Of a stretch of 38,684 nt of DNA, positions 4,175 to 30,488 are shown piece after piece. The stretch's first letter is position 1, and the number at the start of each line of letters is the position of its first letter. A program made the position numbers and the translations under genes. This DNA comes from an uncultured Granulosicoccaceae bacterium (GTDB lineage: Bacteria; Pseudomonadota; Gammaproteobacteria; Granulosicoccales; Granulosicoccaceae). The stretch is taken from positions 1 to 38,684 of the forward strand of contig CALFCF010000072.1 in NCBI GenBank assembly GCA_937951345.1. Reading direction: 5' to 3'. The notes beneath the pieces were generated by a model that was not told the origin of the DNA, ran no database searches, and saw nothing but the letters and a program-made list of their open reading frames with translations.

Positions 4175-4209
4175 GCGGATTCCTTCAATAGCAAGCCGGC
4201 AAAGCTTGC
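4163..4209 (+). other. Overlapping stem-loops at the cpoB 3' end
   Basis: GCCGGCTTG at 4163-4171, which includes the start of the cpoB stop region, pairs perfectly with CAAGCCGGC at 4192-4200. The same segment, as GCAAGC (4191-4196), can instead pair with GCTTGC (4204-4209). The two hairpins are mutually exclusive. No T run follows, so factor-independent termination is not supported. Confidence 0.4.
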
Positions 4210-4346
4210 CAGTGGGTTGGACGTTTGCGGTTCCCAAAGCTGCTATACTTCGGTATCATCCGGTTCCCTTGACGGATAGGTGGCTCTTAGATCGCGTTAA
4301 CCGGTCAGGGGAGCAGACCAATATCGGTTGAACCTTGTTTTAACCG

Positions 4347-4384
4347 ATAGTGCTATGAAGGTAGTGCTATGAAGATAGTGCTAT
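4347..4384 (+). repeat. 14-bp tandem repeat upstream of tRNA-Lys
   Basis: TAGTGCTAT recurs at 4348, 4362 and 4376, giving 2.7 copies of a 14-bp unit ending 12 bp before the tRNA. It is preceded by a 7-bp inverted repeat (ATCGGTT at 4323-4329, AACCGAT at 4342-4348). It lies where the tRNA promoter or leader should be. No convincing -35/-10 pair was identified. Confidence 0.6.
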
Positions 4385-4395
4385 TAAAAAACGTA

Positions 4396-4471
4396 GGGGC
4401 GTTAGCTCAGTTGGTAGAGCATCTGACTTTTAATCAGGTGGTCACAGGTTCGAATCCTGTACGCCCCACCA
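4396..4471 (+). tRNA. tRNA-Lys (anticodon UUU), CCA encoded
   Basis: A full cloverleaf can be drawn. The acceptor stem is GGGGCGT/ACGCCCC, the D arm is GCTC...GAGC and the anticodon stem is TCTGA/TCAGG with loop CTTTTAA. The T arm contains GGTTCGAATCC. The discriminator base is A, followed by an encoded CCA. The length is 76 nt. The TTT anticodon reads lysine codons. Its place directly after cpoB matches the lysT position in Enterobacteria. Confidence 0.98.
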
Positions 4472-4614
4472 TTTTTCTGTTAATCCCTTCTCTGCTATTT
4501 CTCTCCCTTTTATTTCTTAGCGATTTTTAGGTCTTACCGATGCCCGCGCGCTCATCACTTGAACGTGGATTTTGAAGTCGACGCGAACAGTATTTCAGGT
4601 ACCAGAACAAATTC

Positions 4615-11095: not shown

Positions 11096-11120
11096 TCACC
11101 ATGGATGGTGAGATTTTTTT
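11096..11120 (+). terminator. Candidate intrinsic terminator or attenuator
   Basis: A TCACC/GGTGA stem with a 6-nt loop is followed by GA and seven T residues. The stem is short. No plus-strand gene ends upstream, so it would terminate either a roughly 110-nt RNA from the promoter at 10976 or the leader of the gene at 11345. Confidence 0.45.
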
Positions 11121-11344
11121 CCTATTCTATTCCTCTGCATTCGATCGATCTGTATCCATACGGTGATGCGTTGATCTCTGCGTTATATTGCGGCCGTCTT
11201 GCTGCGCACGTGCACGCACTCGCTCTATCTTATAGCCTCACTATATATACGTGTCGTGCACTTGATATGACCGGCGTCGGAAGAAAGATATTGCTGGAGA
11301 GGTTTTTGCAACAGCCGGTTATCTTTCACACTTCTGTTCATGCA

Positions 11345-13018: not shown

Positions 13019-14902
13019 TTGAGCACATACAGTTACATAAAACCGTGTCATCTCGGTTCATTGCAATCGCGCACCGCTGTCAAGCGGTGTCGATGGTTGC
13101 GTTGTGCCTGGGTGACATTGCTGATGGTTTTGTCGGTTCCTGCGATAGCCATCGAAATAACAAGCTACATGGAAGTCCAACTCGTCAAAAATGTTTCAAC
13201 CACCTGGCAGACAGTGAGTCTTGATAATAGTTACGGCGATGCGATTGTTGTGTGTACGTACAACCTTACTGCATTCTCTGCAGCGCACCCACCTGCAGTA
13301 ACCCGGATTCGAAACATTACAGCGACAAGTTTTGACTTGCGTATTCAGGGATGGGAAGACTCGGCAGCGACTGCCAACGATGTGCATTGCCTTATTGTCG
13401 ATGAGGGCGCACACACATTGCCTGATGGACGCGATATCGAAGCACACAAAGTTGTTTCTGATCAGACCAATGGCCAGTTTGCAACAGATGGTGACTGGGA
13501 TGTTGCCTTAATGGAGGATGTCTCTGCCAGCATTGTTCATTCTTACACTGATCCGGTGGTCCTGGGTCAAGTGATGTCGTTTAACGATAACCGAGCCAGC
13601 GTTGTTCACGTTACTGATTGCGATAGACGGCAGGATCATCCGTTCCAAAGCGGACAGGCGGATGGTATCTGTGTCGGAAAGCATATTGGCCAGATCCCGT
13701 CGTCACGCGCTGATGAGACTATCGGTTACATCGTTGCCGAAGCGGGCAGTGGCACCGTTAACAACGTTTTCTTTGAGCTGGCTCTTGGTGCTGACGCTAT
13801 CGCCGGTAACGGCAACAATGACAGTTACGGATTGTCTGCAGATCACACAATAGCTGTTCTAACGCAGGCTGCTGTAGATGGTGTTAATGGCTCATGGGCC
13901 GTGTTGTATGGCACAGACCCATTGCCGAACGGCGCAATGTTTTTACAGGTTGATGAGGAAGTGTTTGTCGATGATACGACTCGCAATCACACCAATGAAC
14001 CCGTCTACTATTGGGCTTTTGCAGCTGCAGAGATAACTCTTGAGAAACAGGTAGTCAACGATCACAACGGAACGCTAACTACTACAGACTTTCAATTGAC
14101 AGCAACTGGTGTTGACACTGCGACTGGCGTTCACGGCGATGACGAAATAACCAAACAGCCGGTGCACCCAGGTGTCTACGTGCTTAGTGAAGTCAATCAG
14201 GCTGGTTACAGCGCATCCGACTGGTCATGCGTTGGTACGAGTGTTGATGGCGGCGATACTATCTCGTTGGCCAGCGGTGACAATGTAGTCTGCACTATTA
14301 CTAATGATGATGATCCGACAGCAGTTTTAACGCTTACCAAGCAGATCGTTAATGACAATGGCGGTAGCGCTGTTGATACAGATTTTACGTTATCGTTTGA
14401 CGATGGTGCCGGCGTTACTGCTAGCGGTGTGTCCGGAAGCGCCTCTGTAACATCCATAGTTGTTCCTCAAGGAAACTACACACTGACAGAAAACAATTTG
14501 GCGGGATATTCGCTGGCCTCGATAAATTGTGATGGCGACGATAGTGATGGTCTCGATGGTCTGAATCTGCTCGCAGGCGAGACAGTCACCTGTGTTTTTG
14601 TCAATGAAGATCAGGGAGTCGATCTGCAAATTGTCAAAATGGTTAGCAATAATGCTCCCAACATCGGCGACACGCTCACGTTTACGCTTTCAGTCACCAA
14701 TAGCGGTCCTGATACCGCAACAAACCTTACGATAACTGATCCACTGCCTGCTGGTTTTTCTTATATTGCTTCATCGATTTCCGGTGGTACGAGTTCAAAT
14801 GACTCCAACCCAAGTGGTTCAGGGTTGCAGTGGTCAGTGGCAAGTCTTTCACCTGGCAGTACCGAGTTACTCACTTTTCAAGCGACAGTGTTGGCGCCTT
14901 AA
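13019..14902 (+). CDS. Surface protein A: possible lectin-like head, SpaA-like domains and an incomplete C-terminal DUF11 domain
   Basis: The product is 627 residues and begins at a TTG with no strong ribosome-binding site; internal starts that still keep the signal peptide are possible. The signal peptide ends near SVPAIA (residue 44). Residues about 45-335 form an unnamed region with internal similarity (TWQTVSLDNSYGDAIVVCTY, AVTRIRNITATSFDLRIQ, ETIGYIVAEAGSG), loosely like jelly-roll or H-type lectin domains. Two SpaA/prealbumin-like domains follow (LEKQVVNDHNG...VCTITNDD and LTKQIVNDNGG...CVFVNED). The last ~95 residues are a DUF11 domain (LQIVKMVSNNAPNIGDTLTF, ITDPLPAGFSY) that stops at LLTFQATVLAP, before the usual final TNTATV strands. 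Those strands appear at the start of the next gene. Likely role: a secreted tip or adhesin subunit (inferred). Confidence 0.85.
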   Translation: MSTYSYIKPCHLGSLQSRTAVKRCRWLRCAWVTLLMVLSVPAIAIEITSYMEVQLVKNVSTTWQTVSLDNSYGDAIVVCTYNLTAFSAAHPPAVTRIRNITATSFDLRIQGWEDSAATANDVHCLIVDEGAHTLPDGRDIEAHKVVSDQTNGQFATDGDWDVALMEDVSASIVHSYTDPVVLGQVMSFNDNRASVVHVTDCDRRQDHPFQSGQADGICVGKHIGQIPSSRADETIGYIVAEAGSGTVNNVFFELALGADAIAGNGNNDSYGLSADHTIAVLTQAAVDGVNGSWAVLYGTDPLPNGAMFLQVDEEVFVDDTTRNHTNEPVYYWAFAAAEITLEKQVVNDHNGTLTTTDFQLTATGVDTATGVHGDDEITKQPVHPGVYVLSEVNQAGYSASDWSCVGTSVDGGDTISLASGDNVVCTITNDDDPTAVLTLTKQIVNDNGGSAVDTDFTLSFDDGAGVTASGVSGSASVTSIVVPQGNYTLTENNLAGYSLASINCDGDDSDGLDGLNLLAGETVTCVFVNEDQGVDLQIVKMVSNNAPNIGDTLTFTLSVTNSGPDTATNLTITDPLPAGFSYIASSISGGTSSNDSNPSGSGLQWSVASLSPGSTELLTFQATVLAP

Positions 14903-14923
14903 GGTGGAATTGAGAGTCAAACT

Positions 14924-17900
14924 ATGAAATGTTTTTCACGGAATAATGGCATGGGTATCAAGACCTCGAAAACTACAAAGCAAGGATGCTTGAGTGCGAG
15001 AGCTTCCCGTTCTCTTGCTCTATTGCTGGCAGCGATACCACTGACAGCTTATCCCTTGACGCTGTCTGACTACCTGAATATTTCAACGGTTACTGCATCG
15101 TCCGATCAGTTTGAAACAAATTTTGATAATAACGACGATCAGGTACAAATAGTCCCTAATGCTGAAATCATCATAGTCAAAGAGATAGTTAATGACGATG
15201 GTGGTGATCTTGTCTTAAGCGATTTTTCCCTTGCAACCAGTGCTGGAGTGCCATCTTTTGGAGCAGGCGCGGTGACCGGTACCACAACCACCTACACCAG
15301 CGACACAATCTATGTGCCACCGGGTACTTACACCCTTGTGGAAGCTGATTTGCCTGGCTACACAGAAGGTTCCTGGTCATGCTCAACTGGTACTGTAGGA
15401 AATAGTGCGTTTGATTCGGGTGAAGTGACACTGGCCTTCGGTGAGCAAACGGTTTGTACGATTACCAACGACGACATTGCCCCGCAGCTGACGTTAGCAA
15501 AGACGGTTGTTAACGACAACGGTGGTGATTTGTTGGTCGATGATTTTGATATATCAATCGACGGTGTTGAAGTTGCGAATAATACCGCGACTGCAGTAAC
15601 TGCCAACATCGATGTTGTAATCAGTGAGCTGGATCTGGATGGCTACACCGAAGGTACCTGGGCGTGTGTGGATGCGAATGGATTGACCACCGGTCTGCCG
15701 ACAGCAGGTGCTGCAACAGGTGAGACATTCCAATTGAAGCAGGGATCGGATGTGACCTGTTCGATATCGAATGATGATATCGCACCGCAACTGACATTAG
15801 TGAAAACGGTTGTTAATGACAACGGTGGTGATTTGTTGGTCGATGACTTCGACATTTCCATCAACAGTGTTGAAGTTGCCAACAATACAGCGACTGCCGT
15901 ATCGGCGAACACAGATATTGTCATCAGTGAGCTAGACCTTGATGGTTATACCGAAGGTACCTGGGCGTGTGTTGATGCGAATGGTTTGACAGCCGGTTTG
16001 CCAACAGCCGGTGCAGCTACCGGTGAGACATTCCAGCTGAAGCAGGGATCGGATGTGACCTGTTCCATATCGAATGATGATATCGCACCGCAACTGACAT
16101 TAGCGAAGACCGTTGTTAACGACAACGGTGGTAACGCAGTACTTGATGATTTTGATATTTCAATTGATGGTGTTGAAGTTGCCAATAACACAGCCACCGC
16201 AGTCACTGCCAACACTGATATTTTAATCAGCGAACTTGATCTGGACGGTTACACCGAAGGCACCTGGGCGTGTGTTGACGTGAATGGTTTGACTACCGGT
16301 CTGCCGACAGCGGGTGCTGCCACGGGTGAGACATTCCAGCTGAAGCAGGGATCGGATGTGACCTGTTCGATAACTAACGATGATTTAGCGCCTCTGCTGA
16401 CTCTGACCAAAACAGTGATCAACGACAACGGTGGTGATCTGTTGGTTGAGGATTTTGATATCTCAATTGATGGAACAGAAGTCGTTAACAGCGCACCTAC
16501 ACCAGTAGCATCGAATCAGCCTATCACGATCAGTGAGCTGGATCTGGATGGTTACACAGAAGGCACATGGGCGTGTGTTGACTCTACCGGATTAACAACG
16601 GGTCTGCCAACTGCAGGTGCAGCAACAGGGGTTGATGTGACGCTGGTTGAAGGCGCGAACGTAACCTGTTCGATTTCCAACGATGATATCGCGCCGCAAC
16701 TGACATTAACGAAAACAGTTGTTAATGACAACGGTGGAGATTTGCTTGTCGATGATTTCGATATATCTATCGATGGTGTTGAAGTTGCCAACAACACAGC
16801 GACTGCTGTAACTGCCAACACAGATATTTTAATCAGCGAACTGGATCTGGATGGCTACACCGAAGGTACCTGGGCGTGTGTGGATGCGAGTGGCTTGACC
16901 ACTGGTCTTCCGACTGCAGGAGCTGCCACGGGTGAGACATTCCAGCTGAAGCAGGGATCGGATGTGACCTGTTCCATATCGAACGATGACATCGCACCGA
17001 GATTGACGTTGTCAAAAACGGTTGTTAATGACAATGGTGGTGACTTGATAGTCGATGATTTCGATATAGCAATCGATGGACTTGAAGTCATCAACAATAT
17101 GGTGACTGCAGTATCAGCGAACACGGATATCGTGATCAGTGAGCTGGATCTGGATGGCTACACCGAAGGTACCTGGGCGTGTGTGGATGCGAGTGGATTG
17201 ACCACTGGTCTGCCGACAGCAGGTGCTGCAACAGGTGAGACATTCCAGCTGAAGCAGGGATCGGATGTGACCTGTTCGATATCGAATGATGATATCGCAC
17301 CGCAACTGACGCTAGCGAAAACGGTTGTTAACGATAACGGTGGTGATTTGTTGGTCGATGATTTCGACATCTCCATCGACAGTGTTGAAGTTGCCAACAA
17401 TACAGCGACTGCCGTATCAGCGAACACGGATATCGTAATCAGTGAGCTTGATCTGGATGGTTACACCGAAGGTACCTGGGCGTGTGTGGATTCGAGTGGA
17501 TTGACCACCGGTCTGCCGACAGCAGGTGTTGCCACCGGTGAGACATTCCAGCTCAAGCAGGGTGCGGATGTGACCTGTTCGATATCGAATGATGATATCG
17601 CGCCGCAACTGACATTAGCGAAGACGGTTGTTAACGATAACGGTGGTGATTTGTTAGTCGATGATTTTGATATCTCGATTGATAGTGTTGAAGTTGCTAA
17701 CAACACCGCGACTGCGGTATCGGCGAACACGGATATCGTAATCAGTGAGCTGGACCTGGACGGTTATACCGCCGGCACGTGGGCGTGTGTGGACGCGAAT
17801 GGTTTAACTACCGGTCTGCCGACAGCAGGTGTTGCCACCGGTGAGACATTCCAGCTGAAGCAGGGATCGGATGTGACCTGTTCCATATCGAATGATGATA

Positions 17901-18493
17901 TCGCACCGCAATTGACGCTGGTCAAGACTGTTGTTAACGACAATGGCGGTACAGCAATTATCGATGACTTTGATATTTCCATCGATGGAATTGAGGTCGC
18001 CAGTGGTGTGGCAAGCCCGGTACAGGCGAATACGGATATCGTGATCAGTGAGCTTGATCTGACACCATATGCTGAAGGTACATGGGAGTGTGTGGATGCC
18101 ACTGGCTTCACAGCCGGTCTGCCGGCTGCAGGTCTCGCAACTGGCGAAACCATTCAGCTCACACAAGGTGCTGATGTGACCTGTTCGATTACCAACAACG
18201 ATCTGGGTATCGATCTGAGTATCGCAAAAACTGTAGATGACCCAACACCCAATATCGGTCAGACAATCACGTTTACCCTGACAGTAGTAAACAACGGTCC
18301 GGATGTGGCGACAGCTGTAAGTGTAAACGATGTGGTTCCTGCAGGTTTCACTTATGTAGCCGGATCTATTTCTGGTGGTGACAGCAGTAACGATGCGGAC
18401 CCCGCAGGTGGCGGTCTCGACTGGACGTTGAATTCTGTCGCAGTAGGTGTCCCGGTGGTACTTACTTTCGATGCTTTAGTAAACGTACCGTAG
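14924..18493 (+). CDS. Surface protein B: rod of nine identical-type SpaA-like repeats between split DUF11 halves
   Basis: The product is 1189 residues. The signal peptide ends near residue 43-46 (IPLTAYPLT). Residues about 47-75 (DYLNISTVTASSDQFETN, then NNDDQVQIVP) look exactly like the last strands of a DUF11 domain with no preceding part. A divergent SpaA-like domain spans 76-184. Nine 101-residue repeats span 185-1093, each with LTLxKTVVNDNGG, ISELDLDGYTEGTW, a Cys pair (WACVD and VTCSISN) and a closing NDD. Lys, Glu and Asn are placed as in isopeptide-forming CNA-B/SpaA domains. The protein ends with a DUF11 domain (IDLSIAKTVDDPTPNIGQTI) that stops at VLTFDALVNVP, again lacking the final strands. 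GAGAG at 14912-14916 is 7 nt from the ATG. B lies 21 bp after A, in the same frame. Likely role: fibre shaft. Confidence 0.9.
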   Translation: MKCFSRNNGMGIKTSKTTKQGCLSARASRSLALLLAAIPLTAYPLTLSDYLNISTVTASSDQFETNFDNNDDQVQIVPNAEIIIVKEIVNDDGGDLVLSDFSLATSAGVPSFGAGAVTGTTTTYTSDTIYVPPGTYTLVEADLPGYTEGSWSCSTGTVGNSAFDSGEVTLAFGEQTVCTITNDDIAPQLTLAKTVVNDNGGDLLVDDFDISIDGVEVANNTATAVTANIDVVISELDLDGYTEGTWACVDANGLTTGLPTAGAATGETFQLKQGSDVTCSISNDDIAPQLTLVKTVVNDNGGDLLVDDFDISINSVEVANNTATAVSANTDIVISELDLDGYTEGTWACVDANGLTAGLPTAGAATGETFQLKQGSDVTCSISNDDIAPQLTLAKTVVNDNGGNAVLDDFDISIDGVEVANNTATAVTANTDILISELDLDGYTEGTWACVDVNGLTTGLPTAGAATGETFQLKQGSDVTCSITNDDLAPLLTLTKTVINDNGGDLLVEDFDISIDGTEVVNSAPTPVASNQPITISELDLDGYTEGTWACVDSTGLTTGLPTAGAATGVDVTLVEGANVTCSISNDDIAPQLTLTKTVVNDNGGDLLVDDFDISIDGVEVANNTATAVTANTDILISELDLDGYTEGTWACVDASGLTTGLPTAGAATGETFQLKQGSDVTCSISNDDIAPRLTLSKTVVNDNGGDLIVDDFDIAIDGLEVINNMVTAVSANTDIVISELDLDGYTEGTWACVDASGLTTGLPTAGAATGETFQLKQGSDVTCSISNDDIAPQLTLAKTVVNDNGGDLLVDDFDISIDSVEVANNTATAVSANTDIVISELDLDGYTEGTWACVDSSGLTTGLPTAGVATGETFQLKQGADVTCSISNDDIAPQLTLAKTVVNDNGGDLLVDDFDISIDSVEVANNTATAVSANTDIVISELDLDGYTAGTWACVDANGLTTGLPTAGVATGETFQLKQGSDVTCSISNDDIAPQLTLVKTVVNDNGGTAIIDDFDISIDGIEVASGVASPVQANTDIVISELDLTPYAEGTWECVDATGFTAGLPAAGLATGETIQLTQGADVTCSITNNDLGIDLSIAKTVDDPTPNIGQTITFTLTVVNNGPDVATAVSVNDVVPAGFTYVAGSISGGDSSNDADPAGGGLDWTLNSVAVGVPVVLTFDALVNVP
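15476..18202 (+). repeat. Nine 303-bp tandem repeats within gene B
   Basis: Units begin at 15476, 15779, 16082, 16385, 16688, 16991, 17294, 17597 and 17900, exactly 303 bp apart. Most are nearly identical in DNA. The fourth (16385) and ninth (17900) are the most divergent. This indicates repeated homogenisation or recent duplication and makes the gene prone to copy-number change. Confidence 0.97.
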
Positions 18494-18524
18494 GTTGACG
18501 GAGCAATCTGAAGCGCGGATTGAC

Positions 18525-21500
18525 ATGAAGTTGGCACTAGCGACAAACAACCGTGTATGCGGATCAGCCCGATGGGTAAGGGCCATGCTTTGCAGCTGCT
18601 TTGGCAGCAGCAAAGTGGGCGCTTGTGCGCTGGGCTGGTTGATTGCGTCATTGCCGTTGTCAGCTGCTGCGCTTACAGGTTCAGATTTCACCAACACAGC
18701 AACCACGGCTTCCTCTCCTGACCAGTTTGAACCGGGTCTGGCTAACAACAGTGATTCGGTTGTTGTTCTGCCAAAAGGAATTACGGTAAACAAAACTGCT
18801 GATGGCAGCGCATTGTCATCACCGACGCTTGCCGGTGACACGATAACTTACACCATAGAAGTTGCTAACCCCGGATTACTTGGGCTTAACAATGTAGTTC
18901 TGGCTGACTCCATTATCAGTGCTGCTGATATCTCACTGGTAAGTGGTGATATTGATAGTGATGGTGTGCTCGATGGACAGGAGGTCTGGGTCTACACAGC
19001 TACCTACGCTATCACGCAAGCTGATCTGGATAGTAATGGTGGTGGTGATGCAGACATAGATAACACGGTAACTGTTACCACAGACGAGCTACCCCCTGCC
19101 AGCGATTCCGCAGATGTACCGATTGTACAGGCGCCGGCCTTTACTGTTGCCAAGGTTGTGGATACGGCGGCGATAAATGCTCCGACAACATTGAACTATG
19201 AAATCACTGTTACCAACACCGGTAATCTTACGTTAACCGGTCTTGCGGTAACCGATGTACTACCCGACGGCTCGAATGCTGTGTTGACAGGGCCGCTGAC
19301 AGATACTGGAACGACAGGTGCGTTGGATGTGGGCGAATCCTGGGTTTTCACCACTATCTATCCGGCGACGCAAGCAGACATTGATGCCGGTAATCTATTG
19401 CTCAATACCGTGTCTGTTACGACAACGGAAACAGATACATTGGTGCAGACGGCGACAGCACAGACAGATGTCAACGCAGTTGCTGATTTTGAAATAACTA
19501 AAGTTGTTGATCAGGCCGCTATTGGTCAACCGTCAACACTCGGATACGTTATTACAGTTGCAAATACCGGTAATGTCAGTCTGACAAACATTGCGTTGAC
19601 CGATACCTTGCCGGATGGTTCTAACGGCACAGTCGGCTCACCAGCCGGTGATGCAGGAGTCACTGGCGTACTCGATGTCGGTGAGACCTGGACGTACAAC
19701 CTGACATACGCAGCAAGCCAGGCGGATATCGATGCCGGTAACGTTCTGATCAATACGGTATCAGCGACTACAACCGAAACCGGTACTGATCCGAAAACTG
19801 CATCAGCAGAAACAACGGTTAGTCAGTCACCAGCGTTCACGGTAGATAAAACTGTTGATTTTGCATCGATTACAACACCGGGACCACTCGGTTACATCAT
19901 CACGCTGGAGAACACCGGCAACGTCTCGCTCACCGGCATCAATTTGATTGATACATTGCCTGATGGCGCGAATGCCACGCTTGTAGGTCCGACGGGCGAC
20001 ACCGGGGTGACGGGTGTAGTCGATGTTGGTGAGACCTGGCAGTACACAACCAGTTACGCAGCGTCACAAGATGACATCGATGCAGCAGTTGATCTGACTA
20101 ACCAGGTTGAAGTCTCGGTTGATCAGTTGACAGACTCTCAGTCAGCAGAGGCGACGACCACTGTGGCCACAGATCCGTCGATGTCGATTGTCAAAACAGT
20201 TGATATCGCATCGGTCAATGCGCCTCAAACACTGAGCTACACGATCGAAGTGACCAATAACGGTAACGTCACTTTAAACAATGTTTCATTGAATGACAGC
20301 TTGCCTGACGGCAGTGCAGCAACCCTGACAGGACCATTGGCTGATGCGGGAGTGGCTGGAGCACTGGATGTAGGTGAGACATGGATTTACAACGGTACTT
20401 ATGCTGTCTCACAGGCCGAAGTTGATAATGGTGCAACCTTGACCAATACCGTTGTTGCAACTGCAGATGAGCTTAGTGGTTCGACTGCGACTGATTCTGC
20501 AGTGACAACAATAAACAGACTGCCCGCGTTTGAGTTGACGAAGGTGGTTGACCAGGCTGTGATCACAACACCGAGTGTATTGAACTACACGATAACCGTC
20601 GAGAATACCGGTAATGTATCGCTTGGAAATATTGTTATCGACGACACTGCGCCGGATGGTTCAGTCGCCACTGTTGTAGGGCCGCTAACAGATACGGGTG
20701 TCACGGGGCGAATCGATGTCGGTGAAACCTGGACATGGACTGCGACCTATAACGCGACGCAATCTGATGTAGATGCCGGGGCCAACCTTGTTAACACGGT
20801 TAGTGCTAGTACGGATGAAGCAGGTTCGGCAACTGATACGGCTGAAACTGTTGTAAATCAGTCGCCCGGCATCATGATTGTCAAGGCGGGTAATACTCAA
20901 AGTTACACAGCCGCTGGCGATGTACTGGAATATACACTGACCATCAGCAACACGGGTAATGTTGCGTTGTCCGCCGTAGTGATCAATGATCCGAACGCTG
21001 ATGCCGGTTCTATCAACTGTGCACCAGGTATCCCGTCACCGTTCCTGCCAGGCAGCTCATTTGAGTGCAGTGCACAGCATACGGTTACCGCCGGCGATGT
21101 TGCCTTTACACAGGTCAACAATCAGGCATTTGTCAATGCGCAAACACCGGACGGTTCACCGGTGATGGACCCAAGTGATGTGGTCTCCATCTTCATGGAT
21201 CAACTGCCACCGGTTGCAACTGATGATTCATTTATATCGCCGGTTAGCGCTGTGCCTGTTTCGCTCGCCGGTGCGGGTAACGACAGCGATCCCAACAACG
21301 ATCTTGATCCGACAACTGTGTCGTTGATTCATCCTGCCGCGCTTGACACGGATGGTGATGGTGATTTCGATACAGTCACGGTGCCCGGTGAAGGTTCGTG
21401 GATTGTCGTTAACACCACTGGCGCAGTGGTGTTTACACCACTTCCGCAGTTTAGTGGAGATCCCACGCCACTTCCGTATACCGTTAGTGATGCAACCGGT

Positions 21501-24500
21501 TTGGTTTCAAATCAGGCGTTATTGACGATTGACTACCCGCAGACAGCGCCAACGGCTAAGGATGATTTCAAGTCGAATCCGTCACCAGCTGTGCCTGGCA
21601 ACCCGACAACGCTGAATGTACTGGCCGATAACGGTAATGGTGTTGATTCAGATCCGGAAAACGACATTGTCGTTAGCACCGTTACGCTCACTCATGCTGA
21701 TGCTATCGATTCAGATGATGATGGTGACGCGGACACACTGACTGTACCGGGCGAAGGTGTCTGGGTAGTCGATAATGCGAGTGGTGATATTACTTTCACA
21801 CCCGCAGCAGGTTTTCTGCTGGACCCCACACCTGTCACTTATACAGTTAGTGACGGTACCGGCCTTGTATCGAATGTTGCGACTGTGACTGTGGACTATC
21901 CGCAGACTGCACCAGTTGCTGTTGACGACGAGCGACTTGATCAACCCCTGGGTCAGCCGGTCACATTGGCCACGCTTGTCAATGACTCAGACCCGGAAAA
22001 CAACATTGATGTAAGCACCGTTATGTTGCTTGATCCGGCAACCGGTGATCCGCTGAGTACATTAACGGTAGCAGGGCAAGGTGTCTGGGTGGTTGATCCG
22101 CAATCCGGTGATGTGACATTTACACCGGAAACGGGATTTCTGGGTGATCCTGATCCTGTGCAATATACCGTCAGTGATACAACCGGACTGGTATCCAACG
22201 TTGCGACGCTAACCGTAACTTATGAAGAACCGGCAACACTTGCTGGTACTGTGTGGCTGGATGCAGATCGTGACGGGTTGATCGGTGTGGATGAAGAACG
22301 TAAGCCCGGCTGGATATTGCGTGTTGTCAACGATGCGGGTGTTGTTGTCGCGAGCACTACGACGGATGCAAACGGTGATTATCTGATTAACGGTTTGATA
22401 CCGGGTGTATACACGGTTGAGTTCTACAACGAAAACGATGTGTTTATGGATAGCCAGAGCACAGGTTCACCCTTGCTCGCCGGACAGACCCTAAATTTAC
22501 CACTACCTGTTGATCCCAGCGGTGTGGTGTACGACAGCCTGACACGACTACCGGTGGAAGGTGTCACGCTGAATTTGCTTAATTCGACTGGTGTGGCCGT
22601 TGATCAGAGCTGCTTGAATCAGAATCAGCAGGGCCAGGTGACGACTGCTGATGGTCTCTATGCATTTGATGTATTCCCGGGTGCGCATCCCAGCTGTCCA
22701 CTGAGTGAAGTCTACTCCATTGATCTGGCTGCGGTTCCGGATGATTATTTCCCGACGTATTCGTCAATAATTCGTGAAGAAGGTGCTGCCAGTTGTGGTG
22801 GCCCCCTACTCGGTTGTGCGGTGTCCTCTGTTTTTGACTCTGCGCCGACTGAGAATGGCTGTACGGTTGATAGTTTGCCCGGCACTGATGCCTGTGAAGT
22901 TCAAGCGCAACCAACAGCACCGGTTGGCCAGCAGGATACGCGTTACTTTGTAGAGTTCGAACTGCAGTCCGGTGATACCAATGTAATTTTTAATCACTTG
23001 CCTTTGGATGCGCGCGATAACACACCGGAAATTCTATTAAGCAAAAGTGTTGATCAGCGCGAAGCATCCGCTGGCGGTATTGTCCGGTACACGCTGATCG
23101 CGGAAAACCTCAGAGACATTTCGGCGCACAACATTCTAATCACTGATGATCCAGCACCCGGGTTCACTATCGAGCCACAGTCTGTACAACTGCAACGTAC
23201 CGGCCCTGATGCGGAGTTGGATACTGCCGACGATGAGATTACCGCACTTGGTCTGTCGCCGGCCGCTCAAGGTGGTGATGCTTATCAATTCGACACATTG
23301 ACGCTTGAGCCGGATGAGACGTTGCGTATCACCTACCTGTCACGTATTGGTGTTGGTGTTGTTGAAGGTGCACATGTCAATCGCGCTGTTGCAGAAGGTC
23401 CGGCAGGCGTTGCCAGCAATGAAGTTACAGCCACTGTACTGATTGTTGCAGATCCGGTTCTTGATCAGGCTACGTTGATCGGAAAAGTATTTAACGATCA
23501 CGATGCTGATGGTTTGCAGGATTCAGCTGACGCAACTTCGATTGTGCTGAAGAGCGACTATTACGGTTGGAACAGTCTACCGCTGCCTGATCTGGATGGA
23601 CGTCGTTCTATCAATGATGATCCGTCACGCGAGAATGTGACGATCAGAATGCCGGTAACGCAAGCCAATCACTTCCGTATTGAAACTGCAGAAGGAACAC
23701 GCATATCGGTCGACGAAAGCGGCACAATTACCGAAGCTCATGTGGGTGCAAAAGCGCGCGGTACCAATGCTCAGGATCTACGCGTTTGCACACATCGAAC
23801 TAACAGCTGGTTTACCAACAAACAGGGATTTCTGGATAACACACAGGGCGAAATTCCTGTATTGGAAATTTCAGTCAGTAACCACGGCATCAGTGAGCGT
23901 GGTTTACCCGGAGTCAGACTTGCGACTGTAACCGGATTAATTATTGAAACTGATGCGCACGGTCGTTTCAATATACCGGATGTTGATGCCGGACGCGGTG
24001 GTCTGGGACGCAACTTCATCTTGAAAGTTGATCCGTCATCGTTGCCGGATGGTGCGCGATTCACCACTGAAAATCCTTATGTGTTGCGAATTGTCAATAC
24101 GGGTTTAAACCGTATGAACTTCGGTGTGCAGGTTGATCATGGTCGAACCGATCAATATGCACGTGGACTGGCAAGTTGTCATCGCGCAACCGAACCAGCA
24201 CCTGTTGAAGGATTTAGTGTTGAAGTGAATCTGGGTTCAGTATTTTTCGATACTGACAAAGCCAATGTTCGCACTGATCAAGCAGGCATAGTTGAAGATA
24301 TTATCGCCAAATTACGTGAATACGGTGGCGGTACGATCGTGATTGAAGCGTTCACCGATTCGCGCGCCTCGGCTGCTTACAATCTTGAACTTGCAGAGCG
24401 CCGTGCTCAGACAATTCGCGAGAAAATTCGTGCAGCACTAGGCGACGACCTGATGCAACAAGTCAGTGTTGAAGTTGATCCTCAGGGACTGGAGGAGTCA

Positions 24501-24509
24501 ACCCGATGA
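18525..24509 (+). CDS. Surface protein C: giant DUF11/CshA/SdrD-B mosaic ending in a partial OmpA domain
   Basis: The product is 1994 residues from the ATG at 18525; a TTG at 18495 would add 10 residues. The signal peptide ends near LPLSAAA (residue 49). Residues 50-80 (TGSDFTNTATTASSPDQFEP, then NNSDSVVVLP) are an orphan DUF11 C-terminal part. Six or seven DUF11-like repeats follow to about 893 (TVAKVVDTAAINAPTTLNYE-type, with NTGNVSLTN and DVGETWTY). Three CshA-like repeats span about 895-1236 (VPGEGSWIVVNTTG, VTFTPETGFLGDPDPVQYTV). SdrD-B/carboxypeptidase-like domains start at AGTVWLDADRDG, and another DUF11 lies near 1501. The C-terminus is an OmpA domain (GSVFFDTDKANVRTDQAG, EAFTDSRASAAYNLELAERRA) that ends before the usual NRRV segment. 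The stop overlaps the next ATG. Likely role: a shaft or adaptor at the cell surface. Confidence 0.88.
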   Translation: MKLALATNNRVCGSARWVRAMLCSCFGSSKVGACALGWLIASLPLSAAALTGSDFTNTATTASSPDQFEPGLANNSDSVVVLPKGITVNKTADGSALSSPTLAGDTITYTIEVANPGLLGLNNVVLADSIISAADISLVSGDIDSDGVLDGQEVWVYTATYAITQADLDSNGGGDADIDNTVTVTTDELPPASDSADVPIVQAPAFTVAKVVDTAAINAPTTLNYEITVTNTGNLTLTGLAVTDVLPDGSNAVLTGPLTDTGTTGALDVGESWVFTTIYPATQADIDAGNLLLNTVSVTTTETDTLVQTATAQTDVNAVADFEITKVVDQAAIGQPSTLGYVITVANTGNVSLTNIALTDTLPDGSNGTVGSPAGDAGVTGVLDVGETWTYNLTYAASQADIDAGNVLINTVSATTTETGTDPKTASAETTVSQSPAFTVDKTVDFASITTPGPLGYIITLENTGNVSLTGINLIDTLPDGANATLVGPTGDTGVTGVVDVGETWQYTTSYAASQDDIDAAVDLTNQVEVSVDQLTDSQSAEATTTVATDPSMSIVKTVDIASVNAPQTLSYTIEVTNNGNVTLNNVSLNDSLPDGSAATLTGPLADAGVAGALDVGETWIYNGTYAVSQAEVDNGATLTNTVVATADELSGSTATDSAVTTINRLPAFELTKVVDQAVITTPSVLNYTITVENTGNVSLGNIVIDDTAPDGSVATVVGPLTDTGVTGRIDVGETWTWTATYNATQSDVDAGANLVNTVSASTDEAGSATDTAETVVNQSPGIMIVKAGNTQSYTAAGDVLEYTLTISNTGNVALSAVVINDPNADAGSINCAPGIPSPFLPGSSFECSAQHTVTAGDVAFTQVNNQAFVNAQTPDGSPVMDPSDVVSIFMDQLPPVATDDSFISPVSAVPVSLAGAGNDSDPNNDLDPTTVSLIHPAALDTDGDGDFDTVTVPGEGSWIVVNTTGAVVFTPLPQFSGDPTPLPYTVSDATGLVSNQALLTIDYPQTAPTAKDDFKSNPSPAVPGNPTTLNVLADNGNGVDSDPENDIVVSTVTLTHADAIDSDDDGDADTLTVPGEGVWVVDNASGDITFTPAAGFLLDPTPVTYTVSDGTGLVSNVATVTVDYPQTAPVAVDDERLDQPLGQPVTLATLVNDSDPENNIDVSTVMLLDPATGDPLSTLTVAGQGVWVVDPQSGDVTFTPETGFLGDPDPVQYTVSDTTGLVSNVATLTVTYEEPATLAGTVWLDADRDGLIGVDEERKPGWILRVVNDAGVVVASTTTDANGDYLINGLIPGVYTVEFYNENDVFMDSQSTGSPLLAGQTLNLPLPVDPSGVVYDSLTRLPVEGVTLNLLNSTGVAVDQSCLNQNQQGQVTTADGLYAFDVFPGAHPSCPLSEVYSIDLAAVPDDYFPTYSSIIREEGAASCGGPLLGCAVSSVFDSAPTENGCTVDSLPGTDACEVQAQPTAPVGQQDTRYFVEFELQSGDTNVIFNHLPLDARDNTPEILLSKSVDQREASAGGIVRYTLIAENLRDISAHNILITDDPAPGFTIEPQSVQLQRTGPDAELDTADDEITALGLSPAAQGGDAYQFDTLTLEPDETLRITYLSRIGVGVVEGAHVNRAVAEGPAGVASNEVTATVLIVADPVLDQATLIGKVFNDHDADGLQDSADATSIVLKSDYYGWNSLPLPDLDGRRSINDDPSRENVTIRMPVTQANHFRIETAEGTRISVDESGTITEAHVGAKARGTNAQDLRVCTHRTNSWFTNKQGFLDNTQGEIPVLEISVSNHGISERGLPGVRLATVTGLIIETDAHGRFNIPDVDAGRGGLGRNFILKVDPSSLPDGARFTTENPYVLRIVNTGLNRMNFGVQVDHGRTDQYARGLASCHRATEPAPVEGFSVEVNLGSVFFDTDKANVRTDQAGIVEDIIAKLREYGGGTIVIEAFTDSRASAAYNLELAERRAQTIREKIRAALGDDLMQQVSVEVDPQGLEESTR

Positions 24510-27500
24510 AGATGCAACAAAAGTATTTGCAGCGGCAGAGTTTTGCAGTGATGCAAGGTGTTGCGCTGAGCATTTTGGTCTTTAGCGGTTCTATGGTGAC
24601 CACAAGCCCCGCGTTTGCAGCCTCCGACACAGATGACACTGTGACCGGCGACAGTGCTGCTTACAAGCTGAAGATAATAAAGCGTGGAGAAGCTACGCCC
24701 ACCGGTGACAATGCCACCACTGAGGGTCGACAGCAGAACCGGCGGGTTGATGTGCGTTTATTGCGTAAACCACCTGAGCAGCTTGCTGTCGAAAGCAGCG
24801 CTGTGGTTCCGGGTGGAGGTAGTGTTTGGATTACGCGTGATCCTGCAGCATTAGAGCGATTACTCCGAGTTCAGACATCAGCAACTTTAACGGTGGAAGA
24901 TCAGCAGCCTGTTACGCCATTGGAATTTCAGGTTGAAACAAACTATCCGTATTTTATCGATAGCGCAGAGGTGTTGTTGTTCAGAGATGGAGACTCTTAC
25001 AGTCAGAAACCGTTACTCGCTATGCCGGTTGATATTAATGGTGTCACAGCAACAGCAGCCTGGGATCCCGGCTCCAAGGGACCGAATGATTATTCCGAGG
25101 GTGAGAGACTTCTGTTAAACGCTCTGGTGCACGGAGAGACGTTTGAATATGCGCTGCGAGTTTATGACAAAGCCGGTAATTACGACCAAACGCATACGCG
25201 CACTATACGCGTAGTTGATGCTGCCAGAAGCATCGATAGTTCTAATTCTAACGATATTGATGATGAAATATCGTTGCAGTCGATTGATTCAATCGATGAT
25301 GGATTTGAAGATATCAATAATGAGACAGGCAACCTGGGCTATGAACCGTTAGCTGTGCAGGGTGTATTGATTGATGGAGCCCGCGTACGCGTGCATGGTC
25401 AGGATCTCGGTATAAGAAGCGGTTACGAAAATCGCGTACAGATAAATGGTGAACAAGTCCAGGTTAATGATGATGGTGAATTTCTGATCGAATATTTGTT
25501 GCCTTCCGGTACGCACGAGTTCAGTGTCGCAGCCAAAGGTGATGCTGAAGGTATAGCCGGATTTGATCAGCAGCTTTCCACTCGCGTCGACACCAATTAC
25601 TTTTTTATGGTTGGTTTGGCTGATTTGACGCTCGGTGAAAACGATGTATCCGGTAGTCTGGAGCCTCTGGAAGTTGATCAGGACCGCTACGACGGTGATA
25701 TTTTTGTCGATGGGCGAGTTGCGTTCTATCTGAAAGGAAAAGTTAAGGGTAAATACCTTGTCACTGCTCAAATGGATACGGGTACTGAAGACGTATCCGA
25801 GTTGTTTGATAATTTCAATCAGAAGGATCCGCGCAGTATATTCAGACGACTTGACCCTGATCAGTACTATCCGGTTTACGGGGACGACTCGAATTTATAC
25901 GACGACACAGATAGCCAGGGTAAGTTTTACGTGCGCGTTGAGTGGGATCGCTCACGTGCGCTATGGGGTAATTTCAATACCGCGTTCAGCGGTACAGAGT
26001 TAGCTGCGTTTAATCGCAGTTTGTATGGTGCACAACTGCAATATCGCAGTCCTAAAAATACCGCTCAAGGTGATACCAAAACGGAACTCTCAGTGTTTGC
26101 ATCGGAAGCGCAAACGGCTTTCAGGCACAACGAATTTCTCGGCACAGGCGGCAGTCTTTACTATCTGCGCGATCAGGATATCGTAATTGGTTCTGAGAAA
26201 GTCTGGGTTGAGGTGAGGCAACGCGGTGCAGAACGCGTCGTAGAACGTATTCCACTGGTTGCCGGTCGTGACTACGATATTGACGAATTTCAGGGTCGTA
26301 TAATCCTGACGCGTCCGCTAGTCACGGTTTCAGGCCAGTCAGGCCCGTCAATCATTCGGGATGAGCCGATTGATGGCAATGAAACCTTTCTGGTGGTTGA
26401 CTATGAATACCTTCCGGACGATTTCGAATCTGACAATGTTACTGCCGGTTTGCGTGCGCGGCGCTGGCTGGGGGATCACGTTGCGATCGGTGCAACGGTT
26501 GCGCACGAGACACGTGATGCTGATGACTACAATATACAAGGCGTTGATTTAACCTGGAAGAAGTCTGGAAACACTTACCTGCGTGCGGAGATCGCCCGCA
26601 GTGAAGCGAGTCAGACAGCTGGAAGTTTTTTGTCTGACGATGGTGGTATATCGTTCACCGCGTTTAACAGCAATCAGGGAACAACCAGTGGCGATGCATT
26701 TAGCATTGAAGGCCGCGTTTCATTAAATGAAATCAGGCGGGGACGTAAGGCCTCGCCAGGCTCGCGTGATCTGACCGTTGGTACCTGGTATCGCTATCGC
26801 GATGGTGGCTTCTCTGTAGCTAGTCTTGATTCCGGAGAAGATACGATCGAGGCGGGTGCAGAGTTTATTGCTGATCTGAATGAGCGAGCAGTTTTGCAGG
26901 GGCGAGCAACAGTCCTGGAGCGGGATGAAGTTTCAAGGGAAACTGCAGCGAGTTTACAAGCTGACTACAGACTGACCAATAGATTGCAGATGGGTGCTGA
27001 GTTACGTGAAATTCGCGAAGAAAATCTTGCCCAGAATGTCGAAGGTGGTGCAACGCTTGCCGGTGGACAGGTCACGTATGACTTGTCTGACTTGTGGACT
27101 GTCTATGCAGCTGCACAATCAACGTTGCGTGAATCCGGCAACTACGAAAGTAACGATCAGTTCCGTCTGGGTGCAGAGTACACACTATCAAATCGATTAC
27201 TCCTGTCAGGTGAGGTATCCACTGGCGATCGCGGCGATGCGGTGCTTGCCGGTGCGGAATGGCTAGTTAGCGACACATACAGTGTATACAGTAATTTGTC
27301 ACATGAAATATCCAACCGCAACGTCACCCGACAGATCGCAACATTGGGGCAGCGAAAACAACTCACAAAACGACTCAAGGTGTTTACAGAGCATCAGTTT
27401 ACCCATGAGGATAACCGCCAGGGCGCGTCCCATACGTTGGGCGTCGACCGTCAGTTCAATCGCTACCTGAGTGCAAACCTTTCAATTCAAATTGGAAGCT

Positions 27501-28246
27501 TCGAGGATGCCGACGGGGATGTCACTGATCGCGATGCCATATCAATTGGCATAGACGGTCGTACCGACAATTTGAGAGCTGGTAGCAGATTGGAATATCG
27601 ACGCGATCGCGGTAGCAATGAAGATATTGATCAGATCGTGACCACCAATCGTTTTGAATATCAGCGCAATGATGCGCTGCGCTGGCAAGGTATTCTGGAT
27701 GCGTCTGTAACGCAGGATCAGTTAGGTGATTTTGAAGATGCGCGATTTATAGAAGCGGGACTCGGGTTTGCCTACCGACCGGTCAGCAACGATCGTTTCA
27801 ATATGCTTGGTCGATTGACCTATCTATTCGATTTGCCACCATTGTCGCAGAGCACGGAGACGGATACGCGATCTATCATAGGTAGTGTAGAAGGTATTTA
27901 TGAGCTAAACGCACATTGGAATCTGGGGGCGAAAGCAGCTCATCGTGAAGGTGAGCAGCGTTTGCAGCGTGGAGACGGACTCTGGTTTGGTAACGATGCC
28001 TCGCTCTTTGGACTACGCCTACGATATCGAGTCCCCTATGGGCTTGATCTTTTGGGAAGTTACCGCTGGCTATCATCGGAAACAACCGAAGGTGTTCGTC
28101 AGGGGGCGCTATTCTCGCTCGGTCGAACGGTGGGTGACCATCTGAACTTATCGATCGGTTACAACTTTACCGACTTTGATGACGATCTTGGTGATGACAG
28201 CTTCGATGCTCGTGGATGGTTCCTGAATCTTGTCGGGCGCTATTGA
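24506..28246 (+). CDS. Protein D: large outer-membrane beta-barrel protein beginning with an OmpA-domain tail
   Basis: The product is 1246 residues. The signal peptide ends at TTSPAFA (residue 38). Residues about 53-88 (KLKIIKRGEATPTGDNATTE, then GRQQNRRVDVRLL) match the last part of an OmpA domain, including the GR..NRRV signature, without the rest of the domain. Ig/carboxypeptidase-like stretches follow. From about residue 380 to the end there are long alternating strands rich in Arg, Tyr and Asp, ending GWFLNLVGRY with a terminal aromatic, as in outer-membrane barrels. GGAGGAG at 24491-24497 is 8 nt from the ATG, which overlaps the TGA of C (ATGA), so translation is probably coupled. No known porin family is named with confidence. 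Likely role: outer-membrane anchor or exporter for the C protein. Confidence 0.85.
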   Translation: MKMQQKYLQRQSFAVMQGVALSILVFSGSMVTTSPAFAASDTDDTVTGDSAAYKLKIIKRGEATPTGDNATTEGRQQNRRVDVRLLRKPPEQLAVESSAVVPGGGSVWITRDPAALERLLRVQTSATLTVEDQQPVTPLEFQVETNYPYFIDSAEVLLFRDGDSYSQKPLLAMPVDINGVTATAAWDPGSKGPNDYSEGERLLLNALVHGETFEYALRVYDKAGNYDQTHTRTIRVVDAARSIDSSNSNDIDDEISLQSIDSIDDGFEDINNETGNLGYEPLAVQGVLIDGARVRVHGQDLGIRSGYENRVQINGEQVQVNDDGEFLIEYLLPSGTHEFSVAAKGDAEGIAGFDQQLSTRVDTNYFFMVGLADLTLGENDVSGSLEPLEVDQDRYDGDIFVDGRVAFYLKGKVKGKYLVTAQMDTGTEDVSELFDNFNQKDPRSIFRRLDPDQYYPVYGDDSNLYDDTDSQGKFYVRVEWDRSRALWGNFNTAFSGTELAAFNRSLYGAQLQYRSPKNTAQGDTKTELSVFASEAQTAFRHNEFLGTGGSLYYLRDQDIVIGSEKVWVEVRQRGAERVVERIPLVAGRDYDIDEFQGRIILTRPLVTVSGQSGPSIIRDEPIDGNETFLVVDYEYLPDDFESDNVTAGLRARRWLGDHVAIGATVAHETRDADDYNIQGVDLTWKKSGNTYLRAEIARSEASQTAGSFLSDDGGISFTAFNSNQGTTSGDAFSIEGRVSLNEIRRGRKASPGSRDLTVGTWYRYRDGGFSVASLDSGEDTIEAGAEFIADLNERAVLQGRATVLERDEVSRETAASLQADYRLTNRLQMGAELREIREENLAQNVEGGATLAGGQVTYDLSDLWTVYAAAQSTLRESGNYESNDQFRLGAEYTLSNRLLLSGEVSTGDRGDAVLAGAEWLVSDTYSVYSNLSHEISNRNVTRQIATLGQRKQLTKRLKVFTEHQFTHEDNRQGASHTLGVDRQFNRYLSANLSIQIGSFEDADGDVTDRDAISIGIDGRTDNLRAGSRLEYRRDRGSNEDIDQIVTTNRFEYQRNDALRWQGILDASVTQDQLGDFEDARFIEAGLGFAYRPVSNDRFNMLGRLTYLFDLPPLSQSTETDTRSIIGSVEGIYELNAHWNLGAKAAHREGEQRLQRGDGLWFGNDASLFGLRLRYRVPYGLDLLGSYRWLSSETTEGVRQGALFSLGRTVGDHLNLSIGYNFTDFDDDLGDDSFDARGWFLNLVGRY

Positions 28247-28598: not shown

Positions 28599-30488
28599 AT
28601 GAGTAGCCTATTGCGCTTTCGTACACTGTCGTTGCTGACTATGGCCGTAACACTGTTACTGCTGACGTCTTGTGCTAGCCAGCGTTCCCAATTGGCGGGA
28701 AGTGTGGGCAATCTTGTATCTATACCAGAGAACCGTGATTCTTTTCGCAAACGCTGGTACGCAGGAGCGACACTGGGGAATGCTGCTTTTGATCCGGATT
28801 TAAGCGCAACCGGTTTCAGTGTTCAAAACGGCAGTGCGTCTGCAACGCAAATCACTGGTGGCTACGATCTCCATAATCTTGTTAGCTTTGAATTCGATAG
28901 TTCGGTGCTTGGTAGTGCAGAACTTGAAGCAACCGCTGAAGTTGAATACACCTCGTTTGCCGCAAGTAGCTTGATTTATGCAGCACCGAGTGCGAACCGT
29001 TCCAGTCGCCAAAGTTGGAGTACCTTTGCTCGAGTGGGTTTAGGTTTCTCAAGCGCAGCGTCGAATGTGCGGGTACTTGACGGGCGTGATCTATCCGGTG
29101 TGGTTCTGGGGTTAGGCCTTGAGTACGGCTTTCGCAACGGTCTTGGTTTGCGACTTGAGACTACCCGGTTCCATGATGAGGCAGTATTTACTGGCATCGG
29201 TGCGGTCTTCCGTTTTGGCAGAAACACTTCGCTGGCACCGAAACTGGGAGCTGCAAAACCTTCTACATCAGAAGCTCCCGTCTACACGGGCAGTGGCGGG
29301 TTTACACAGCCGGTGGCAAACAAACCAAAATTACAGGCAGGTCTGCCCGGTGTTTTCCAACAGGACGCCCATCCAAGTCACGCAGCTAATGTTACTCCGC
29401 GGTTACCAAAATCTGCAACTGCACACTATAAAAGTAAAGTGGTTGTAGCGACCGTGCACGATCTGGACGGCGACGGCGTCGGTAACGACTCGGATGATTG
29501 CTTCAACACGGCACCGGGCACGTCGGTTAATGCAAAAGGGTGTGGTTTGTTTGATGGTGTCGTTGAGGGCGTGACCTTCAAAAACGGTTCTGCAAGCATT
29601 GACGAAACCAGTAAGCAAATTCTTGACAGGTTAGCTGTCAGGTTATTGGCATTCCCTGAAGTCCGTGTCGAAGTCCAGGCACATACAGATGACAAAGGTC
29701 CGGAATCAATAAACAAATCTGTTTCCGAAACGCGGGCACGCTTTGTCACAAACTATTTAAAGCGCCAGGGCGTGCCAGCAGAACAAATGGTAGCTGCTGG
29801 ATTGGGTGAAACCCGCCCTCGTGCTGACAATGAAACCGAAATAGGTCGTTTGTCCAACCGTCGCATTGAGCTGCGGTCATTGCCGGACCGAGAAATCGTA
29901 CCCAGGCATCTGACTGTGGTACCACCGGCAGCAGAGGTTTACTTGCTCAACAGCCAGTCAGCTCTTCCGAAACAGTCAAAATCGGCTAGCAAAGCAGTTG
30001 AAACAACAAAAACTGTAACAAATACCCGGGTAAGCAGCAAAGCTGAAGTTGAAGCTGCCATTATTGAAGAAGAGCCGGATCTGCTTGCTGCAAAAGAAAA
30101 CCAGACAGTCACACTGCCACCTCAGATCGCGATGCCAGGCACACGCCTGAACGGTGTGCTTGACGGTGTTGAGTTTAACGGCCGCACCGCCGAACTCACT
30201 GCGTCATCAGACAAGTCGCTGAACGCTATCGCCAATCAATTGGAACGATTCCGTTCCGCAAAGATTGCGATCATGGCCCACACCGATGATCAAGGTACCC
30301 GGGATGAAAATCAGACCCTATCGTTAATGCAAGCGCAAGCAGTCAAGAATTACCTCGTTGCTCGCGGGATAGAAGCCGTGCGAATTACACCGCATGGCTA
30401 TGGCAGCAGTTTGCCGGTGGCACAAAACTTGACAGCGAAGGATCGTGAGCTAAACAGTCGCGTCGAGTTACGCGTTGTTGCCCGGTAG
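28599..30488 (+). CDS. Lipoprotein with beta-barrel-like domain and two OmpA domains
   Basis: The product is 629 residues. The lipoprotein signal ends in LLLTSC (Cys25). Residues about 50-205 are barrel-like (RWYAGATLGNAAFDPDLSAT, FEFDSSVLGSAELEATAEVE, GVVLGLGLEYGFRNGLGLRL, IGAVFRFGRN). A single Asp-rich calcium-type loop (DLDGDGVGNDSDDC) leads to OmpA domain 1 (GVTFKNGSASIDETSK, VQAHTDDKGPESINKSVSET, GRLSNRRIEL). A charged linker then leads to OmpA domain 2 (GVEFNGRTAELTASSD, IMAHTDDQGTRDENQTLSLM, LNSRVELRV). Two peptidoglycan-binding-type domains in one lipoprotein is unusual. It shares the lipobox-barrel-OmpA order with the products of 11345-12553 and 34755-35888. No strong ribosome-binding site precedes the ATG. 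It follows the operon terminator, so it is probably transcribed separately. Confidence 0.85.
   Translation: MSSLLRFRTLSLLTMAVTLLLLTSCASQRSQLAGSVGNLVSIPENRDSFRKRWYAGATLGNAAFDPDLSATGFSVQNGSASATQITGGYDLHNLVSFEFDSSVLGSAELEATAEVEYTSFAASSLIYAAPSANRSSRQSWSTFARVGLGFSSAASNVRVLDGRDLSGVVLGLGLEYGFRNGLGLRLETTRFHDEAVFTGIGAVFRFGRNTSLAPKLGAAKPSTSEAPVYTGSGGFTQPVANKPKLQAGLPGVFQQDAHPSHAANVTPRLPKSATAHYKSKVVVATVHDLDGDGVGNDSDDCFNTAPGTSVNAKGCGLFDGVVEGVTFKNGSASIDETSKQILDRLAVRLLAFPEVRVEVQAHTDDKGPESINKSVSETRARFVTNYLKRQGVPAEQMVAAGLGETRPRADNETEIGRLSNRRIELRSLPDREIVPRHLTVVPPAAEVYLLNSQSALPKQSKSASKAVETTKTVTNTRVSSKAEVEAAIIEEEPDLLAAKENQTVTLPPQIAMPGTRLNGVLDGVEFNGRTAELTASSDKSLNAIANQLERFRSAKIAIMAHTDDQGTRDENQTLSLMQAQAVKNYLVARGIEAVRITPHGYGSSLPVAQNLTAKDRELNSRVELRVVAR

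Follow-up and report, generated by a model that had tools for sequence, protein, structure and literature searches.

The window, a 38,684-nucleotide stretch of DNA from an uncultured Granulosicoccaceae bacterium (assembly GCA_937951345.1, contig CALFCF010000072.1), carries an operon of four open reading frames (ORFs), designated A, B, C, and D, which lie on one strand with 21 bp between A and B, 1 bp between B and C, and a 4-bp overlap between C and D (Table 1). The start codons of A and C are TTG and are uncertain. The original prediction held that these genes encode four secreted proteins joined head to tail by shared split domains, that the domains at the joints are DUF11 and OmpA, and that the joints follow a donor-strand logic. 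The ORFs and their coordinates are confirmed, curated domain models confirm the cuts, and the halves and their tails are recovered by profile, alignment, and structure model.

The last DUF11 domain of A and that of B each cover positions 1-85 of the 114-position Pfam model, scoring 81.1 and 75.7 bits, respectively, against a cut-off of 24.6, and there the protein ends; for neither terminal domain is the whole DUF11 (CLIPPER) domain found in a single chain. The missing pieces stand directly after the signal peptides of the proteins encoded next (..LTLSDYLNISTVTASSDQFETNFDNNDDQVQIVPN in B, ..LTGSDFTNTATTASSPDQFEPGLANNSDSVVVLPK in C, and ..AYKLKIIKRGEATPTGDNATTEGRQQNRRVDVRLL in D). The joint between C and D divides an OmpA domain that is incomplete in either chain: C terminates at position 63 of the 98-position Pfam profile and D holds the rest. 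On the 206-position YiaD-type OmpA model of NCBIfam, C covers positions 102-166 and residues 52-84 of D cover 173-205, and in OmpA-type models generally these D residues correspond to the final 33 positions. Sequence, alignment, and model all indicate an incomplete immunoglobulin (Ig) domain that the next subunit fills with its N-terminal extension, and these head-to-tail split joints are both conserved and recurrent. A frameshift or an assembly error was considered as the cause of the cuts and rejected, since neither can yield a cut with a signal peptide sitting between it and the missing part, as is seen at each one, and 15 genomes agree.

The match between receiver halves and donor tails was scored with a hidden Markov model (HMM) built on intact DUF11 domains in other family proteins; on this model the receiver halves run to about position 86 of 121. 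When the real tail is added the match reaches about position 113, and the score rises from 72.1 to 79.7 bits for A and from 66.4 to 70.7 bits for B; shuffled tails bring 72.5 and 66.7 bits, a gain of about 0.4 bits. Aligned unaided by MAFFT with intact DUF11 domains, the in-frame A-B stretch opens one gap of 52 columns, which is made up of the stop of A, the spacer, and the signal peptide of B, and the alignment resumes in the B tail, Asn on Asn.

DUF11 was renamed CLIPPER in a 2025 survey, and one domain has been solved (PDB 9IFR; PMC12617251). We modeled the A-B joint with AlphaFold2 from residues 533-627 of A, read through the stop into residue 90 of B. The receiver is predicted with a pLDDT (predicted local distance difference test) of about 90, the signal-peptide stretch is disordered (about 42), and the B tail forms two strands (71-82). 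The top Foldseek match of the model is 9IFR, and VIA-align superimposes the two with a Z of 13.3 and a root-mean-square deviation (rmsd) of 2.4 angstrom over 115 of 123 residues, a match that extends across model residues 1-182; other Ig-like domains equal 9IFR in Z. When the joined A-B fragment was searched by sequence in the PDB, only its first part aligned with 9IFR, and the match of the B tail rests on the MAFFT alignment and the model for that reason. As modeled, the A half and the B tail would make up one CLIPPER fold. The read-through is a modeling device. It might be asked whether A and B are in fact made as one chain by read-through of the stop codon, since in the window they are in frame with a single TAA between them; we give this almost no credence, because in G004 and G016 A and B lie in different frames and B has a signal peptide of its own.

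The division also separates an isopeptide triad. In 9IFR an isopeptide bond joins Lys715 to Asn806, presumably catalyzed by Asp748 (PMC12617251). Counted along the chain, Asn806 falls on the Asn of VVNKVTAS, and its position corresponds to the Asn of DYLN, DFTN, and similar motifs in the donor tails. The published number of the catalytic residue is off by one, the Asp of LTLND being 749 by chain count; in our reading Asp748 would be this same Asp, which aligns with the receiver Asp. By inference from 9IFR, the split lies between strands beta7 and beta8, with the donor bringing beta8, which carries the reactive Asn, and beta9. The full CLIPPER triad is present but spread over two chains, Lys and Asp in the receiver and Asn in the donor. 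This separation of the triad goes beyond the original prediction, as does the recurrence of the arrangement in other operons and families described below. Receiver Lys and Asp are invariant in all 38 aligned halves (12 from A, 12 from B, and 14 orphans) and are also found, read by eye, in six A and B halves from G013, G028, and G058; the Asn is present in 30 of 30 donors. Since the residues of the triad are parted by the split, a Lys-Asn isopeptide bond probably makes the joints A-B and B-C covalent; if the halves dock and adopt parent-domain geometry, this bond between two separate proteins is predicted to form spontaneously. Lys/Glu/Asn is the pattern of SpaA_2 isopeptide domains (PMC12617251), and because each repeat of B retains it (nine of nine, together with a Cys pair), covalent bracing may extend over the whole A-B stretch.

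Table 1. Features of the A-D operon (positions in the window)
Feature	Position	Strand	Description
A	13019..14902	+	Secreted putative tip; signal peptide, head, two SpaA (prealbumin-like) domains, C-terminal half DUF11/CLIPPER
A receiver half-domain, DUF11 positions 1-85 of 114	14621..14899	+	Lys540 codon 14636-14638; Asp574 codon 14738-14740
B	14924..18493	+	Secreted rod; signal peptide, donor tail, SpaA_2-type repeats, C-terminal half DUF11
B donor tail, predicted CLIPPER strands beta8 and beta9, directly after signal peptide	15053..15163	+	Putative reactive Asn52 codon 15077-15079
B tandem repeats, 303-bp unit	15482..17950	+	Nine SpaA_2-type repeats of 101 amino acids
B receiver half-domain	18212..18490	+	Lys1102 codon 18227-18229; Asp1136 codon 18329-18331
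C	18495..24509	+	Secreted mosaic; donor tail, DUF7507/DUF11 domains, three CshA repeats, SdrD_B, C-terminal OmpA half
C donor tail	18672..18788	+	Putative reactive Asn codon 18693-18695
C end: N-terminal portion of OmpA domain	24243..24506	+	Profile matches
D	24506..28246	+	Outer-membrane protein; N-terminal OmpA remnant, Ig-like domains, very large C-terminal beta-barrel
D: remainder of OmpA domain (helix and last strand, ..EGRQQNRRVDVRLL), after signal peptide	24656..24763	+	
D barrel region	25718..28243	+	About 36-42 amphipathic strands (AlphaFold2 model)

A match to D is found in 29 of 57 sampled relatives, and it is full-length or nearly so in 16 of them besides the copy of the window genome. 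A search for the same gene order and for conserved split points, proposed with the original prediction, returned the order A-B-C with identical cuts in 15 genomes of the family; D follows in the same stretch in 13 of these (in G028 the C-D junction lies on another contig, and in G013 the stretch ends before D). Across these genomes the length of B ranges from 383 to 1,597 residues, as expected of a shaft with a variable number of repeats. Intact, unsplit homologues had been named as grounds for refutation, and they do exist. In G007 and in L063, L064, and L083 (bins of Desulfobulbaceae, Gammaproteobacteria, and Thermodesulfovibrionia) C-like and D-like regions share a single chain, in which the joint is a complete OmpA domain and the next motif of D comes after it; in G027 (L093 and L050) one chain of 5,417 residues, with several dozen DUF7507-like repeats and the ending of C, takes the place of A-B-C, and D is still separate, split from it. 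Refutation does not follow, because the fused forms show the sum of the split parts and support the joint. The same fused forms are what one would point to if the cuts were relics of gene fission in long adhesins, the fragments persisting without binding one another, but we regard this as scarcely probable: a relic would not hold the same cut in 15 genomes, would not gain a signal peptide exactly at each cut or keep a tail at the mature N-terminus, and would not appear in separate families and in solitary tips.

The solitary proteins are secreted and end in a receiver half. They occur in 10 of the 15 A-B-C genomes, most of them encoded elsewhere and without an adjacent donor gene, and their heads vary (Calx-beta-like, LamG-like, SpaA, and others); in G015 a receiver protein of this type is encoded immediately upstream of A. 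Family genomes that lack A and B have no close receiver half, except for G001, where the operon is cut by the contig end. From their sequences, the solitary proteins would fit the role of interchangeable tips on a common shaft. Solitary half-DUF11 proteins can be seen in L058 (oriented, 3725-4900), in L129-L139, and in L053 (3673-5232). Orphan tips that carry a half-DUF11 with no donor gene beside them would also be seen if the half-domain were a sorting or secretion signal for an export machinery rather than a socket, and C-terminal Ig-like sorting domains occur in type 9 secretion. This explanation, which we consider quite improbable, leaves the matching N-terminal tails, and their frequency after receiver genes, unaccounted for.

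Similar relays are found elsewhere. The same family has a second such cluster (L094, L095, and L097, from genomes G013, G031, and G023), which passes from a half-DUF11 to a tail-plus-half and on to a tail-plus-barrel; its parts are a small receiver, a tail-plus-half protein of about 980 amino acids, a tail-plus-barrel protein of about 2,020, a small OmpA lipoprotein, and another tail-plus-half of about 920. In a wider survey of 40 DUF11 loci sampled across the phylum Pseudomonadota, nine DUF11 domains reach to within three residues of a C-terminus, and every one of them breaks off at model position 87-89 of 119. Genes that follow a receiver are enriched for N-terminal tails (three of eight, as opposed to one of 435; Fisher p = 1.5e-5), and that single outlier is the real following gene, with a spurious ORF in between. 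The tail HMM was trained on one family and gives low scores to evident tails such as QTIRNTATLTF (L196) and SQTITNTAQLSY (L184); the adjacency statistic is conservative because the model is too weak to catch all tails elsewhere. A phylum-wide tail search gave few matches, owing to the shortness of the tail model. The four-gene order A-B-C-D recurs in another family (L189), five-gene relays are present in others (L184 and L176), and all three of these relays end in outer-membrane barrel proteins; L196 and L190 are further examples of half-DUF11 relays.

The AlphaFold2 model of D (residues 51-1246; pLDDT 73, moderate) comprises the OmpA remnant, Ig-like domains, and a barrel of about 36-42 strands, and the large C-terminal beta-barrel is in keeping with the outer-membrane barrel first proposed. 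Many unrelated outer-membrane barrels tie in Foldseek and VIA-align, neither of which found a specific relative; FimD ranks with porins and TonB receptors, with Z of 11-13 and rmsd above 10. The fact that outer-membrane barrels of many kinds match equally argues that D is an outer-membrane protein, and the same tie means that its export mechanism cannot be read from its fold. D may be the anchor of the chain, and that the chain is exported through it is speculation. The C-D joint is also split in G001, G027, G033, G017, and Cocleimonas (L061 and L062). Many orthologues of D carry a conserved Cys pair between the signal peptide and the OmpA remnant (CASGECEA, CTSAACAE), a pair that D of the window lacks.

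Taken together, it seems likely that A-D are subunits of one cell-envelope fiber assembled by domain complementation with isopeptide welds. Each protein would be exported by Sec. The terminal CLIPPER domains of A and B would lack their last two strands, and the mature N-termini of B and C would fill them in; docking would place the receiver Lys and Asp beside the Asn of the donor tail, and a self-forming Lys-Asn bond would weld A to B and B to C, with sortase, chaperone, and usher all dispensable. The partial OmpA domain of C would be completed non-covalently by the N-terminal remnant of D, whose giant outer-membrane barrel would anchor, and perhaps export, the chain, and solitary tips with other heads may dock on the same shaft through their receiver halves. 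The isopeptide bond, the surface location, and the order from tip to anchor are what we infer from these data. The broader proposition is that split DUF11/CLIPPER domains define a natural, widespread class of covalent bacterial fibers with a self-catalyzed Lys-Asn weld at each docking, an outer-membrane barrel at the end, interchangeable solitary tips, and no sortase, chaperone, or usher; here we see the chances as evenly balanced.

Several observations weigh against this scheme. The HMM scores do not separate A plus the B tail from A plus the C tail or from B plus the B tail, and the test shows no pairing discrimination, so the proposed order of partners is tentative and B might polymerize with itself. 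The structure model of the A-B joint was built from 12 sequences and a read-through linker. Some receivers of the family are followed by a gene without a tail, as is one receiver in a five-gene relay. The C-D joint is weaker and less general than the others: D has an extra strand relative to the fused C-D forms, and L189, G043, G054, and L087 have an OmpA-like end in C but no remnant in D to match it. Intact DUF11 domains commonly contain the Lys-Asp-Asn triad, and its retention at the joints would for that reason be expected from folding alone; the first receiver of the second cluster, moreover, has no Asp. These last points bear on the possibility that the halves complement each other non-covalently, in ordinary donor-strand fashion, with an inherited triad that goes unused across chains. 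Docking alone accounts for the cuts and the tails, and chaperone-usher pili function without isopeptides. We nevertheless think this unlikely, given that Lys and Asp are invariant in all receivers of the system described here, diverged orphan tips included, and that the Asn is kept in every donor tail while much else varies.

OmpA domains usually face the periplasm, which fits poorly with surface display of C. Since they normally bind peptidoglycan, and since the genes that flank the operon (11105-12553, 28599-30488, and 30717-35888) also encode OmpA proteins, the chain might assemble but remain periplasmic, as a scaffold between outer membrane and peptidoglycan. This, too, is a minority possibility in our estimation. 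CshA, SdrD_B, SpaA, and DUF11 modules and a possible lectin head (the head of A has a weak H-type lectin match) are typical of surface adhesins, and repeat number varies widely, as it does in surface stalks; both favor a fiber displayed at the surface.

Gram-negative donor-strand fibers are mainly regarded as products of the chaperone-usher pathway. Type 1 and P pili likewise have an incomplete Ig domain filled by the N-terminal extension of the next subunit and a subunit order from tip to base, but their single donated strand is held non-covalently and they require a PapD-type chaperone and an usher. Neither the outer-membrane usher (PF00577) nor the PapD-type chaperone (PF00345) has a match in the genome assembly, which is 95.5% complete, while the E. 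coli control was positive for both; the absence of such genes predicted for the operon therefore holds for the whole assembly, and membership among chaperone-usher pili is ruled out. The joint acts like donor-strand complementation yet differs from that of a chaperone-usher pilus, and the split triad suggests covalent welding. Sortase-assembled pili of Gram-positive bacteria resemble A-D in their SpaA-type and CnaA-like Ig domains and covalent fiber; in them, however, sortase polymerizes subunits via a C-terminal motif, and none is seen at the ends of A, B, and C. The CLIPPER stalk of 9IFR (PMC12617251) shares the domain family and the Lys/Asp/Asn triad and belongs to a Gram-negative adhesin with an OmpA-like anchor, but in that adhesin a single chain holds both the domain and its bond, whereas in A-D the domain and the triad are shared out over two proteins.

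Of the known systems, the archaeal thread and the engineered DogTag/DogCatcher split come closest. The thread, built of Saci_0406 (PMC9715654), also relies on donor-strand complementation without chaperone and usher, with a proposed intermolecular isopeptide bond. It is, however, a homopolymer of an unrelated fold family, made by an organism with no outer membrane, and its bond runs from the N-terminal alpha-amino group of Asp24 to Asn57 two subunits away; A, B, and C are distinct proteins, and the predicted bond would form through an internal Asn of the tail. In SpyTag/SpyCatcher and DogTag/DogCatcher (PMC8878318), an isopeptide domain is likewise divided into two pieces that react spontaneously, but those splits were engineered in Gram-positive adhesin domains, whereas the split in A-D appears natural and repeated. 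There is a real chance that split-domain joints represent a new class of donor-strand assembly. No description of such joints was found in the open-access literature, which is weak evidence of novelty, most subscription journals and preprints lying outside the search.

If the scheme is correct, self-welding split domains arranged in a relay would offer a further route of fiber assembly, built from the very common DUF11, a domain of uncertain role in many surface proteins. It would explain why some of these proteins open with the closing part of a domain and finish on its opening part, and it would provide a natural counterpart of SpyTag/SpyCatcher and a source of new natural tag and catcher pairs. 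Recurring as it does in many bacteria, the arrangement may be an unrecognized way to build surface fibers.

Among the three flanking proteins of the OmpA family, one has two OmpA domains and one has many TSP3-like calcium repeats; the two downstream of D have counterparts behind D in G001. Elsewhere in the window, the contig begins (1-202) with a tandem array of 13.5 copies of a 15-bp unit (AGGAACGCATCGAGC), and a short 14-bp tandem repeat (4346-4384 and 4396-4471) lies immediately upstream of a tRNA-Lys gene.

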